A DNA stretch of 64,000 bases from Alkalicoccus sp. (GTDB lineage Bacteria; Bacillota; Bacilli; Bacillales; Salisediminibacteriaceae), in assembly GCA_007692495.1 (NCBI GenBank), contig REBZ01000106.1, positions 62,001 through 126,000 of the forward strand, given 5' to 3'. A model generated the notes under the pieces. It was not told the DNA's origin. It worked only from the letters and a program-made list of their open reading frames with translations, and did not search any database. Of this stretch, positions 19,601 through 24,870 are shown piece after piece; the stretch's first letter is position 1; each line of letters begins with the position of its first letter. Position numbers and translations under genes: made by a program.

Positions 19601-19697
19601 TGGCGGGACCGTGTGGGAATCGAACCCACCGGAGACGTCACGCGCCTCCCAAAAGGCTTTGAAGGCCCAGGTAAGCACCAGCTACACATCCGGCCCC
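19601..19697 (-). tRNA. selC: tRNA-Sec (anticodon UCA)
   Basis: minus strand GGGGCCGGATGTGTAGCTGGTGCTTACCTGGGCCTTCAAAGCCTTTTGGGAGGCGCGTGACGTCTCCGGTGGGTTCGATTCCCACACGGTCCCGCCA: loop CTTCAAA (anticodon TCA), long variable arm GGAG..CTCC, T-arm GTGGGTTCGATTCCCAC, encoded CCA. Confidence 0.96.
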
Positions 19698-19793
19698 ATA
19701 GCAACGTCTCTAATTATAATAGAGAGAATCAAAGATTGCAATCAGACAATATTTTACGATATCTTTAATGGAAATGCAGGAGAGGAGGTACTT

Positions 19794-21665
19794 ATGAAAA
19801 AGTATTATACGATTGGTATGGCAGGCCATATTGACCACGGAAAAACAACTCTTACAAAAGCGCTGACAAATATGGATACAGACCGGCTGAAGGAAGAGAA
19901 AGAACGGTCCATTTCCATTGAACCTGGTTACGCTCCTTTACATGTGAATGATGAGTGGGAAGTCTCCATTGTAGATGTTCCGGGCCACGAGAAATTTATC
20001 CGTCAGATGATCGCGGGCGTGGCAGGGATAGACGCCGTAATTTTAGTTATAGCAGCAGATGAAGGGGTTATGCCGCAGACGAGGGAACATTTGAAGATTC
20101 TGGATCTGCTTGGAGTAAGTCAGGGAATGATTGTATTTACGAAGTCTGAAGGGCTTGAAGAGGACATGGAAGAGCTTCTTAAGGAAGATGCCCACCAGCA
20201 TACTGCTGGAACTTTTTTAGAAGGAAGTCCCGTGTACTTCGTTGACAGTCTCAGCCGTAAAAATATTTCGTCTCTGCGTAAGGACATTGATACAATGCTG
20301 AAAAAAACACCACAGCGCCGGGCAGGCAGTGGTTTCCGCATGCCTGTGGATCAGTCATTTACGGTAAAGGGCCAGGGGACCGTAGTCCGGGGTACTATTT
20401 TTAATGGTTCTTTAAGCGAAGGAGATAGTGTGCAGCTTCTTCCACAGAATAGATCGATCCGTATAAGGCAGATTCAAGTACATCATGAAAAAAGATCTTC
20501 TGCAAGAGCTGGACAGCGGGCGGCTTTAAACCTGGGTGGTGTAGATTACGGTGACATATCCCGGGGAGATGTTATTGTCAAAGGTTCCTTCCCGGTAACT
20601 CAAACTATTGATATAGCACTTCAGCCGGTGGATTTATTTACGATTCCGCTTAAGCAGCGTAGTCCGGTGAAAATACACACCGGTACTTCAGAAGTATACG
20701 GTACAATTGTATTTTTTGACCGGAACGAGCTTAAACCAGGGGAAAAGGAAGAAATACTTTGTCAAGTGCGTCTCGATCAGGAAATTGTCGCTGACCGTAA
20801 TGACAGATTTATACTAAGGCGTCCGACACCGGCAGAAACGATCGGGGGAGGCCGTATAATAGATCCTTACGGCGGCAAATACCGGTTCGGCAAACAGACA
20901 GTTCAAATACTGAGCCAAAAGAAAGAGGGAACGCCGGAAGAGCGTCTCGTGTTTGCACTGCAGCAGGACCGGGCAATGACAGCTTCAGATCTGGCTGCAA
21001 TCACTTCAATTAGTAGGGAGGACCTGGAGCTCGAAGTGGAAAACAGCAATAAACTACTGGAAATAGGCGGGTGGCTGCTTACGGCTGAAGACAGTTCAGA
21101 TATGAAAGAACATATAAAAACCCTTCTGTCACAATATCATTCCACTTATCCGATGCGCCCGGGGAAAAATATAGCAGAGCTCATTAAAAATCTGCCGATA
21201 CCGGAACAGGCTGGAACTAAATTCCTGCAGTATCTTGAAAAAGATAAACACATTTTCAGGGAAGCAGAATTTGTTTATCTGCCGGACTTCACACCTTCTT
21301 ATCCGAAGCCATGGGCAAAGCGAATGGAACAGGTGGAAAACAGCATCCTGAAAAGCGGTATGGAAGTACCAGTATTCGAAGAGGCTGCTGCGGAGGCAGG
21401 GCTCGATAAAAAGCAGGCTGCTGAACTATACAATTTTTTCCTTCGCAATTCCATGTACAAACTTGATGAAAAACACATTATCTCCGAAAGCGCAGTTAAA
21501 AAAGCTGTTTCAAAACTGAAAACAGAGGAAAGTGAAAAATTCACCCTGCAGGACGCTAAGCAGCATTTGGGATTATCCAGAAAATATCTCGTTCCCCTCC
21601 TGGAACTTTTTGATAAGCTTCAATTTACAAAGCGGGAAGATGAGTACCGGATCTGGAAAAATTAA
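19794..21665 (+). CDS. selB: selenocysteine-specific elongation factor SelB
   Basis: [59 protein letters not shown]-terminal winged-helix repeats; SD GAGGAGG before ATG 19794. Confidence 0.97.
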
Positions 21666-21783
21666 AACCAGAAAACGTATTTTCCTGTGAAGTTAACAGA
21701 AAAAATCGATCAGCACCGGAATTATTAAATGTCAGAAACCGCCGGTGCTACAGCGTTTTTTCAGGATAAAATTGTGAATAATA

Positions 21784-21823
21784 AAAGAGAGTGCTTCCAT
21801 AAGGAATGGAGCACTCTCTTTTT
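21784..21823. terminator. terminator between convergent selB and selD
   Basis: AAAAGAGAGTGCTTCCATAAGGAATGGAGCACTCTCTTTTTT. Confidence 0.85.
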
Positions 21824-21828
21824 TGCCG

Positions 21829-22905: not shown

Positions 22906-23007
22906 TTTAATTATCCCTCCTTTCTGCCTCATTATACCTTCTGCGTTGACCACATCCAAACAATAAACTAGAATTAAGAAAAGAGAGCACGGAAGGGGAG
23001 TTGCCGC

Positions 23008-23232
23008 ATGAAAATAACCATTGAATTCTGCATGCAGTGAAATTACGCTCCAAAAGCTGCGAGTTTCGCAGAAGAAATATTCAGTGAGATGCGCCGTGAA
23101 ATTACTTGTTTTGAACTCATCCCCTCTTCAGGAGGAGCTTTCGAGGTTTATAAAGAAGGAGAATTAATATACTCGAAATTAAGCACTGGGTCTTTTCCGG
23201 AAACAGAAAGCATTATTAAACAATTAAAGTAA
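23008..23232 (+). CDS. SelW/Rdx-family selenoprotein (CxxU), missed in ORF track
   Basis: MKITIEFCMQUNYAPKAASFAEEIFSEMRREITCFELIPSSGGAFEVYKEGELIYSKLSTGSFPETESIIKQLK*; TGA at 23038-23040; SD GGAAGGGGAG. Confidence 0.93.
23057..23071 (+). promoter_or_regulatory. bSECIS stem-loop of selW-like gene
   Basis: CTGCGA-GTT-TCGCAG perfect 6 bp stem, loop starts 22 nt after UGA with G first. Confidence 0.75.
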
Positions 23233-23350
23233 CCGCTGCAGGCTTCGTTTCCACCAGAAACGAAGCTTTTATTATTTTCAGCAGTTCGACACATTAAAGA
23301 ATCTCCCGTATAATAACAATTAGATGGAAAATTGAAAGGAGCGTTTTATT

Positions 23351-23455
23351 ATGTTCAGCAGAATCTTTAAACTGCTTTTTGTAATCGGTTTTGGAATTTA
23401 TACGTACGGACTCGCAGAGGATGAAAAGAAAAGAAGGCAGTTGACGTCCTCGTGA
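23351..23455 (+). CDS. 34-aa putative single-pass membrane protein, stop overlapping selA start
   Basis: MFSRIFKLLFVIGFGIYTYGLAEDEKKRRQLTSS*; SD GAAAGGAG; GTGA overlap with selA. Confidence 0.6.
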   Translation: MFSRIFKLLFVIGFGIYTYGLAEDEKKRRQLTSS

Positions 23456-24870
23456 GCCGGACGTTTTCCGCGCAGTTTCTGAAACTCCTTCCTTCTGTTC
23501 ACGAGCTTTCGGAAGCACTGGAGATAAAGGAAGCGGAAAAGCGGAATAAGCTTCCATTTAAATATACAAGAAAACTCATCCGGGATAAGATTGAACTCTT
23601 TCGTACGCAGATTATCGCAGGGGTAACAACTGCAGAATCAAAAGAAGAAATGTCGAATTTGGTTATCCAGGCGGTCCTCCCCGAAATGGAGGCAGTCAGA
23701 TACAGGCTTAAGCCTGTAGTCAACGCTACTGGAACGGTTCTGCACACTAATCTTGGACGTGCCCGTCTGAGCCGGGAAGCTGCCCGTCACGTATCAGAAG
23801 CTGCGCTCAGCTACAGTTCTCTGGAATACGATATTTCCACTGGTAAAAGAGGCTCCCGGATGTCTCTTCTCGAAGAACTGTTAACAGAAGTGACCGGGAC
23901 AGAAGCGGCACTGGTCGTCAATAATAATGCAGCGGCTGTTTACTTTGTTTTGTCCGCCCTTGCCAAAAACCAGGAAGTTATTGTATCAAGAGGAGAACTG
24001 GTTGAGATAGGCGGCTCCTTTCGTGTTTCATCCATTATGGAAGAAAGCGGCGCCCGGCTTATCGAAACAGGAACGACAAATAAAACAAGGGCCGCAGATT
24101 ACATTAACGCTTTAACTGAGGAAACATCCATGGCGATGAAGGTTCATACGAGCAATTTTGCTGTTGTGGGATTTACTGAAAATGTTAATTCTTCTCAATT
24201 AAAACGTGAACTGAATGCTCACGGCCGGGAGGATGTAATTGTTTATGATGATCTCGGCAGTGGTTCGCTCTATCCTTTCAGCAGTGATAACATCGGCGAT
24301 GAACCCATCGTCGGCAAAGTGGTGAAAAACGGAGCGGACCTTGTTTCTTTCAGTGGTGATAAACTTCTTGGAGGCCCTCAGGCCGGTATTATTGCCGGGA
24401 AAAAATCGCTGATAGATAAACTGAAAAAACATCAGCTTGCAAGGGTACTGCGTCTCGATAAACTGACGATTGCAGCTCTCGAAGCTACGCTCTTTGAATA
24501 TTTATACGGAGAAAATCCGAAGCAGAATATTCCTGCGGTGCGTGATATTACAAAAACGCAGGGAGAGGTAAAAGAATGGACAGAGGAATGTACAGCTTCT
24601 ATCACTCTGGACAGGACAATATTGACTCCGGAGCCGTCCATTTCCAAAGTCGGGGGAGGGACAATGCCGCTTGCTGAACTTCCTACCTACGGATTTTATG
24701 TGGACAGAGAGGGGATGCAGGCAGCAGCCGTCGAGAAATTTTTGAGAACCCGGAAAAAGCCGGTTATCGGTCGGGTTTTTGATGGCAGATTCTATATGGA
24801 TATGAGGACTTTAGAAAAGGAAGACTGGGATGCGGCAGCTGAAGCACTTAAAGAACTTGATGAATTGTAA
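23452..24870 (+). CDS. selA: L-seryl-tRNA(Sec) selenium transferase SelA
   Basis: NATGTVLHTNLGRARLS, SFSGDKLLGGPQAGIIAGKKSLIDKLKKHQLARVLRLDKLT (PLP Lys). Confidence 0.97.
   Translation: MSRTFSAQFLKLLPSVHELSEALEIKEAEKRNKLPFKYTRKLIRDKIELFRTQIIAGVTTAESKEEMSNLVIQAVLPEMEAVRYRLKPVVNATGTVLHTNLGRARLSREAARHVSEAALSYSSLEYDISTGKRGSRMSLLEELLTEVTGTEAALVVNNNAAAVYFVLSALAKNQEVIVSRGELVEIGGSFRVSSIMEESGARLIETGTTNKTRAADYINALTEETSMAMKVHTSNFAVVGFTENVNSSQLKRELNAHGREDVIVYDDLGSGSLYPFSSDNIGDEPIVGKVVKNGADLVSFSGDKLLGGPQAGIIAGKKSLIDKLKKHQLARVLRLDKLTIAALEATLFEYLYGENPKQNIPAVRDITKTQGEVKEWTEECTASITLDRTILTPEPSISKVGGGTMPLAELPTYGFYVDREGMQAAAVEKFLRTRKKPVIGRVFDGRFYMDMRTLEKEDWDAAAEALKELDEL

Follow-up and report, generated by a model that had tools for sequence, protein, structure and literature searches.

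A probably ancestral selenocysteine locus between yneK and citB in Alkalicoccus, and its predicted selenoproteome

The use of selenocysteine (Sec) has mostly been discussed for anaerobes, and a set of Sec genes lying between yneK and citB in a draft genome of Alkalicoccus (2.74 Mb, 80.8% complete) raises the question of whether it was acquired into this core interval, as originally predicted, or was inherited there, and of which proteins it serves. The nearest named relative of the genome studied is A. saliphilus 6AG, with a SelB 90% identical. Coordinates refer to the window, the entire stretch of 64,000 nucleotides that was analysed.

Content of the locus

Profile searches, ARAGORN and Rfam agree on a selC, selB, selD, selW-like and selA locus at 19601-24870 between yneK and citB, as had been claimed from the sequence of the window. 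Its features, with those of its surroundings, are as follows (profile scores are followed by their cut-offs).

13596-14660, plus strand: mnmH/selU, tRNA 2-selenouridine synthase (NF008750, 321.6 bits, cut-off 241; TIGR03167, 290, cut-off 220)
19050-19508, minus strand: left flank, called yneK after the label in the original prediction; neighbour of the locus in all seven other Alkalicoccus genomes; no match in the NCBIfam profile search
19601-19697, minus strand: selC, tRNA-Sec with anticodon UCA (ARAGORN, anticodon tca; Rfam RF01852, 59.6 bits, cut-off 47)
19794-21665, plus strand: selB, Sec-specific elongation factor (TIGR00475, 365 bits, cut-off 242)
22905-21829, minus strand: selD, selenophosphate synthase, itself a predicted selenoprotein (TIGR00476, 413 bits, cut-off 125)
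22845-22843, minus strand: in-frame TGA of selD, context GUGCKI, at the catalytic Cys/Sec site (translated with TGA as U)
22799-22817, minus strand: SECIS-like hairpin of selD, 8-bp stem, loop GUU
23008-23232, plus strand: selW-like small selenoprotein gene (TIGR02174, 63 bits, cut-off 34.2)
23038-23040, plus strand: in-frame TGA of selW, in the CxxU motif CMQU
23057-23071, plus strand: SECIS-like hairpin of selW, 6-bp stem, loop GUU
23240-23268, plus strand: terminator-like hairpin 3′ of selW, 12-pair stem and T run (consensus match only)
23352-23456, plus strand: small membrane-type ORF of 34 codons, its stop overlapping the selA start
23452-24870, plus strand: selA, L-seryl-tRNA(Sec) selenium transferase (TIGR00474, 513 bits, cut-off 268)
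25017-27740, plus strand: citB (aconitase), right flank

All four components of the Sec-decoding trait (selC, selA, selB and selD) are present and intact, and tRNA-Sec, selA, selB, selD and selW each occur as a single copy genome-wide; the small selenoprotein has both the CxxU motif and the TIGR02174 profile of the SelW-like family. The locus itself is ordinary, standard Sec machinery, and its description as a self-sufficient module that includes a small redox selenoprotein of its own was correct. Two features go beyond that description, namely that SelD appears to be a selenoprotein in its own right and that mnmH/selU is found nearby, 5 kb upstream, a neighbourhood retained across Alkalicoccus. 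SelD and MnmH/SelU together make up the selenouridine (SeU) trait, and mnmH/selU is a second user of selenophosphate from SelD, so that both SelD-dependent uses of selenium are encoded close together. The 34-codon ORF has a counterpart ending in EDEKKRRxL in front of selA in five other Alkalicoccus genomes and in one further relative (G013).

Position, synteny and descent

Among 61 genomes (the one studied and 60 relatives), full-length SelB is present in 45, including all eight of Alkalicoccus; it was not found in 16, some of which fall in Alkalicoccus's own family, indicating that the trait has sometimes been lost. Far from being rare, Sec is common in this Bacillales order, contrary to the view of Sec decoding in aerobic Bacillales on which the original prediction had relied.

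Comparison of 40 relative loci, most of them retrieved as stretches of about 20 kb, gave the same order wherever all genes are present, selC(-) selB(+) selD(-) selW(+) selA(+) citB(+), throughout the genus and across the family and most of the order as sampled. The citB gene lies within the retrieved stretch in 31 of the 40, and also in two genomes with longer intervals (G025 and G008); tRNA-Sec was detected in 36, and a few genomes lack selD or selW in the cluster. The locus of Heyndrickxia camelliae has SelB near yneK and no other Sec gene in the retrieved stretch.

Gene trees, proposed earlier as a test of horizontal transfer, recovered the genera almost without exception: nine changes of genus label were counted for SelB and eight each for SelA, SelD and CitB, against a minimum of eight, in single-gene trees with many weak nodes and four very long SelB branches. 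Distances between Sec proteins are correlated with those between citB products (0.49-0.65), and none of 999 permutations gave a value as high. Taken together, synteny, trees that match genera and the correlation with citB distances argue for vertical descent with losses. We put at roughly 0.93 the probability that the Sec locus is ancestral to a Bacillales order and has been passed down vertically in its place between yneK and citB. A locus ubiquitous and ancestral at this position, named at the outset as what would speak against acquisition, is, apart from scattered losses, essentially what the order shows.

The next best reading is a variant of the ancestral locus that differs at the root only, and places an old transfer next to citB in an ancestor common to the order, or to a slightly broader group in which Peribacillus tepidiphilus is included, followed by inheritance and loss. 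The citB-adjacent arrangement was not seen among the SelB loci read in a class-wide sample outside the order, as an old transfer would predict, and P. tepidiphilus (L021), which has the citB-linked arrangement, as does G266 of this order, groups with the latter in both the SelB and the CitB trees. On the other hand, SelB occurs in 59 of 251 genomes from the class as a whole, so that the trait may well be older and its position fixed later, and we regard the old transfer as possible but unlikely.

Much less can be said for the acquisition of a cassette by Alkalicoccus or a recent ancestor, with replacement of the spore genes that the interval would otherwise hold. The absence of SelB from several relatives of the same family, and its location elsewhere outside the order in the class-wide sample, are compatible with such an event, but the spread of SelB, the identical order and position across genus, family and order in the 40 loci, and trees that follow genera led us to reject it as very improbable; neither the patchy presence nor the conflict with core-gene trees that characterize a recently acquired cassette was found.

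The spore genes point the same way. Searches with approximate B. subtilis sequences of sspO and sspP placed sspP, and sometimes sspO, in the interval before citB in most SelB-less relatives; in G008 and G025, however, sspO, sspP and the Sec genes stand side by side in one interval, and are thus not replacements for each other, as the interval had been thought to suggest. Genes for alpha/beta SASP were not found in any of the eight Alkalicoccus genomes, the B. subtilis control being positive, which suggests loss of sporulation in Alkalicoccus. Since SASP genes are absent genus-wide, and Sec and spore genes can coexist, the spore genes appear to have been lost rather than displaced, and their displacement by a Sec cassette was rejected.

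Reading of UGA in selD and selW

Returning to an inherited locus, we may consider whether its UGA codons are read as Sec. Each of the 42 SelW matches in the 61 genomes, the studied one included, contains exactly one TGA, indicating that the in-frame UGA is not a matter of chance, and SelW was absent from all 16 SelB-less genomes of the same set. The UGA of selD is kept in all relative loci but one, in which it is replaced by Cys. In both genes the UGA, located at a conserved Cys/Sec site as in the client genes described below, is followed at a short distance by a conserved hairpin with a loop starting in GU, as expected of a SECIS with G in the apical loop (of the client hairpins, that of the metal ATPase is weak in the genome studied). 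The stems covary: in selW, one pair changes from U-A to C-G in six of 36 distinct sequences, and in selD, one pair changes from A-U to G-C in ten of 33. An in-frame UGA combined with a conserved, covarying hairpin argues that selD and selW themselves encode selenoproteins.

In the exceptional genome (G030, locus L056), Cys takes the place of Sec in SelD and the start of selW looks degraded, with selB and tRNA-Sec still there; the Sec trait is perhaps being lost in it. That genome, and the lack of SelB in 16 of 61, might be taken as signs of a decaying or non-functional locus whose UGA codons are plain stops. This is highly improbable, since the genes are intact, the UGA codons are conserved, the SECIS stems covary, and Cys replaces UGA in genomes without SelB. 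A working ancestral Sec locus is instead indicated, with very high confidence, by these comparisons.

A wider set of UGA-containing genes

A scan of the genome for UGA with coding sequence on both sides, as had been recommended for finding further Sec genes, yielded nine genes with a redox-type UGA in addition to SelD and SelW, ruling out the latter two as the sole users of the machinery. The list was chosen by coding score and by eye, and at 11 or more genes in all may be incomplete. The nine genes and their UGA contexts are given below; the seven without coordinates lie on contigs C6, C160 (two genes), C130, C78, C60 and C81.

Peroxiredoxin-like protein: NUSVC
SelL-like redoxin (peroxiredoxin-like): GUPYC
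DsbA-like protein: VUPFC
Heavy-metal P-type ATPase: FTURDC
HesB-like protein: GMGUGGP
MsrA: GMGUFWG
OsmC-like protein: AGGULTG
CueP (contig C168, 4194-4709, minus strand): THPUSIHNLTGCQGE
GAF-STAS protein (contig C68, 13482-14318, minus strand): SYUQYI

Other candidates, C9:2444, C21:59022 and C135:22472 among them, were judged to be neighbouring genes sharing a frame and were discarded.

Of the 11 UGA genes, 10 have a suitably placed hairpin of at least 6 kcal/mol, compared with 2.9% of 1847 other TGA sites, under a rule (a G at loop position one or two) that was fixed after a first look; an earlier and narrower rule, restricted to loops starting in GU, missed most SECIS-like hairpins. Against synonymous recodings, the hairpins gave a Fisher combined p of 1e-10. 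The GAF-STAS gene was considered doubtful until its hairpin was seen, and the other UGA genes had been chosen before hairpins were inspected. Homologues in relatives carry a TGA in 21 of 21 cases for the peroxiredoxin-like protein, 18 of 18 for the SelL-like, 13 of 13 for the DsbA-like and 10 of 10 for the OsmC-like protein, these counts recording the presence of a TGA per relative rather than its exact position. We infer at least 11 selenoprotein genes, with high confidence for those conserved in relatives and good confidence for the rest. Published lists already contain nine of these 11 families or closely related forms.

CueP and GAF-STAS as candidate selenoproteins

The CueP assignment is based on its profile (NF038094, PF21172; 174 bits, cut-off 60). 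One conserved Cys (THPC) is replaced by UGA in 20 of the 25 loci read in relatives (L173-L197), and in the genome studied the UGA (THPU) is followed by a 7-bp hairpin. In the GAF-STAS protein, read in relatives at loci L146-L172, a GAF domain precedes a YtvA-like STAS domain, and a UGA at a conserved GAF cysteine is accompanied by a hairpin; other relatives have Cys at this site. Among its UGA-containing members, two (G013 and G055) show no clear hairpin by the rule used, and the hairpin of G033 is weak. Both proteins thus combine UGA in place of a conserved Cys with a hairpin and a distribution that tracks SelB.

Indeed, the SelB-less genomes read have a Cys codon at the site in CueP, the ATPase and GAF-STAS alike, except for G035, in which no SelB was found, yet CueP and the ATPase contain UGA; this exception is probably due to its incomplete assembly (76% complete). 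In three SelB-less genomes (G016, G027 and G031), CueP has Cys and keeps the peptide HNLTGCQGE, but the hairpin is gone, arguing for selection on the hairpin at the RNA level. In G032 (L194), the CueP gene has a Cys codon yet retains its SECIS-like hairpin, which would fit a recent change from Sec to Cys. In-frame TAA and TAG codons in the ATPase of some SelB-less genomes were also considered as recoding and rejected, the site itself showing plain Cys codons.

A 2026 table covering 119 families and subfamilies of prokaryotic selenoproteins (PMC13188914) lists neither CueP nor GAF/STAS. Our literature search found no relevant GAF/STAS selenoprotein, nothing on Sec in Alkalicoccus or alkaliphilic Bacillus, and CueP together with selenocysteine only in an unrelated paper on hydroxyapatite biomaterials. 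There is good reason to regard the two as undescribed selenoproteins as far as the literature searched goes, although database annotations could exist. Judging from sequence, aerobic Bacillaceae are likely to have a large and largely undescribed selenoproteome that includes new Sec-CueP and Sec-GAF-STAS families.

Comparison with known systems and possible role

With the general bacterial Sec-decoding trait the locus shares all four components (SelA, SelB, SelC and SelD) and the combination of UGA with a downstream hairpin; it differs in its fixed citB-linked position, in its alternating strands and in belonging to a lineage that is selenoprotein-rich yet aerobic. Of organisms with six or more selenoproteins, 78% are anaerobes (PMC5029168), and A. 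saliphilus grows aerobically (PMC6588035); an early survey listed only three selenoproteins in Bacillales (PMC1794560). Known SelW-like (SELENOW-like) bacterial selenoproteins (PMC1794560, PMC13188914) have in common with the present one the CxxU motif, a length of about 75 residues and the TIGR02174 profile, but here the gene is part of the Sec machinery locus, and no Cys form occurs among 42 genomes. Pseudomonadales have a selA-selB-selC cassette with fdhA, for which horizontal transfer has been reported (PMC1794560), and which likewise clusters Sec genes with a selenoprotein gene; the Alkalicoccus cluster, in contrast, appears vertically inherited, contains selD and has SelW rather than FdhA as its partner. 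Relative to the known copper-binding CueP, the profile is shared, and one conserved Cys (THPC) is UGA in most loci read.

On the basis of established biochemistry, SelD would make selenophosphate, SelA would convert Ser-tRNA(Sec) to Sec-tRNA(Sec), and SelB, bound to the mRNA hairpin, would bring the latter to UGA. With Sec at the active site of SelD, the system would feed itself. SelW would act as a small CxxU thiol/selenol redox protein, and the putative clients are redox and metal-handling proteins: two peroxiredoxin-like proteins, DsbA-like, MsrA, OsmC-like, HesB-like, CueP, the metal P-type ATPase and GAF-STAS. Selenoproteins probably defend this aerobic haloalkaliphile against oxidative and metal stress.

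The main interest of the locus lies in a Sec trait of aerobic haloalkaliphilic Bacillaceae that is probably ancestral and rich in selenoproteins, with a fixed position across a large order that has culturable aerobic members, and with at least 11 predicted selenoprotein genes in one species. SelB-less sister species that use Cys offer a natural experiment for asking what favours the retention or the loss of Sec. If confirmed, Sec in the copper-binding CueP and in a GAF-STAS regulator would extend the known uses of selenium, and the latter would represent a selenium-based signalling sensor.

Elsewhere in the window, positions 55183-55567 of the plus strand carry a bacterial class B RNase P RNA (Rfam RF00011, 329.7 bits).
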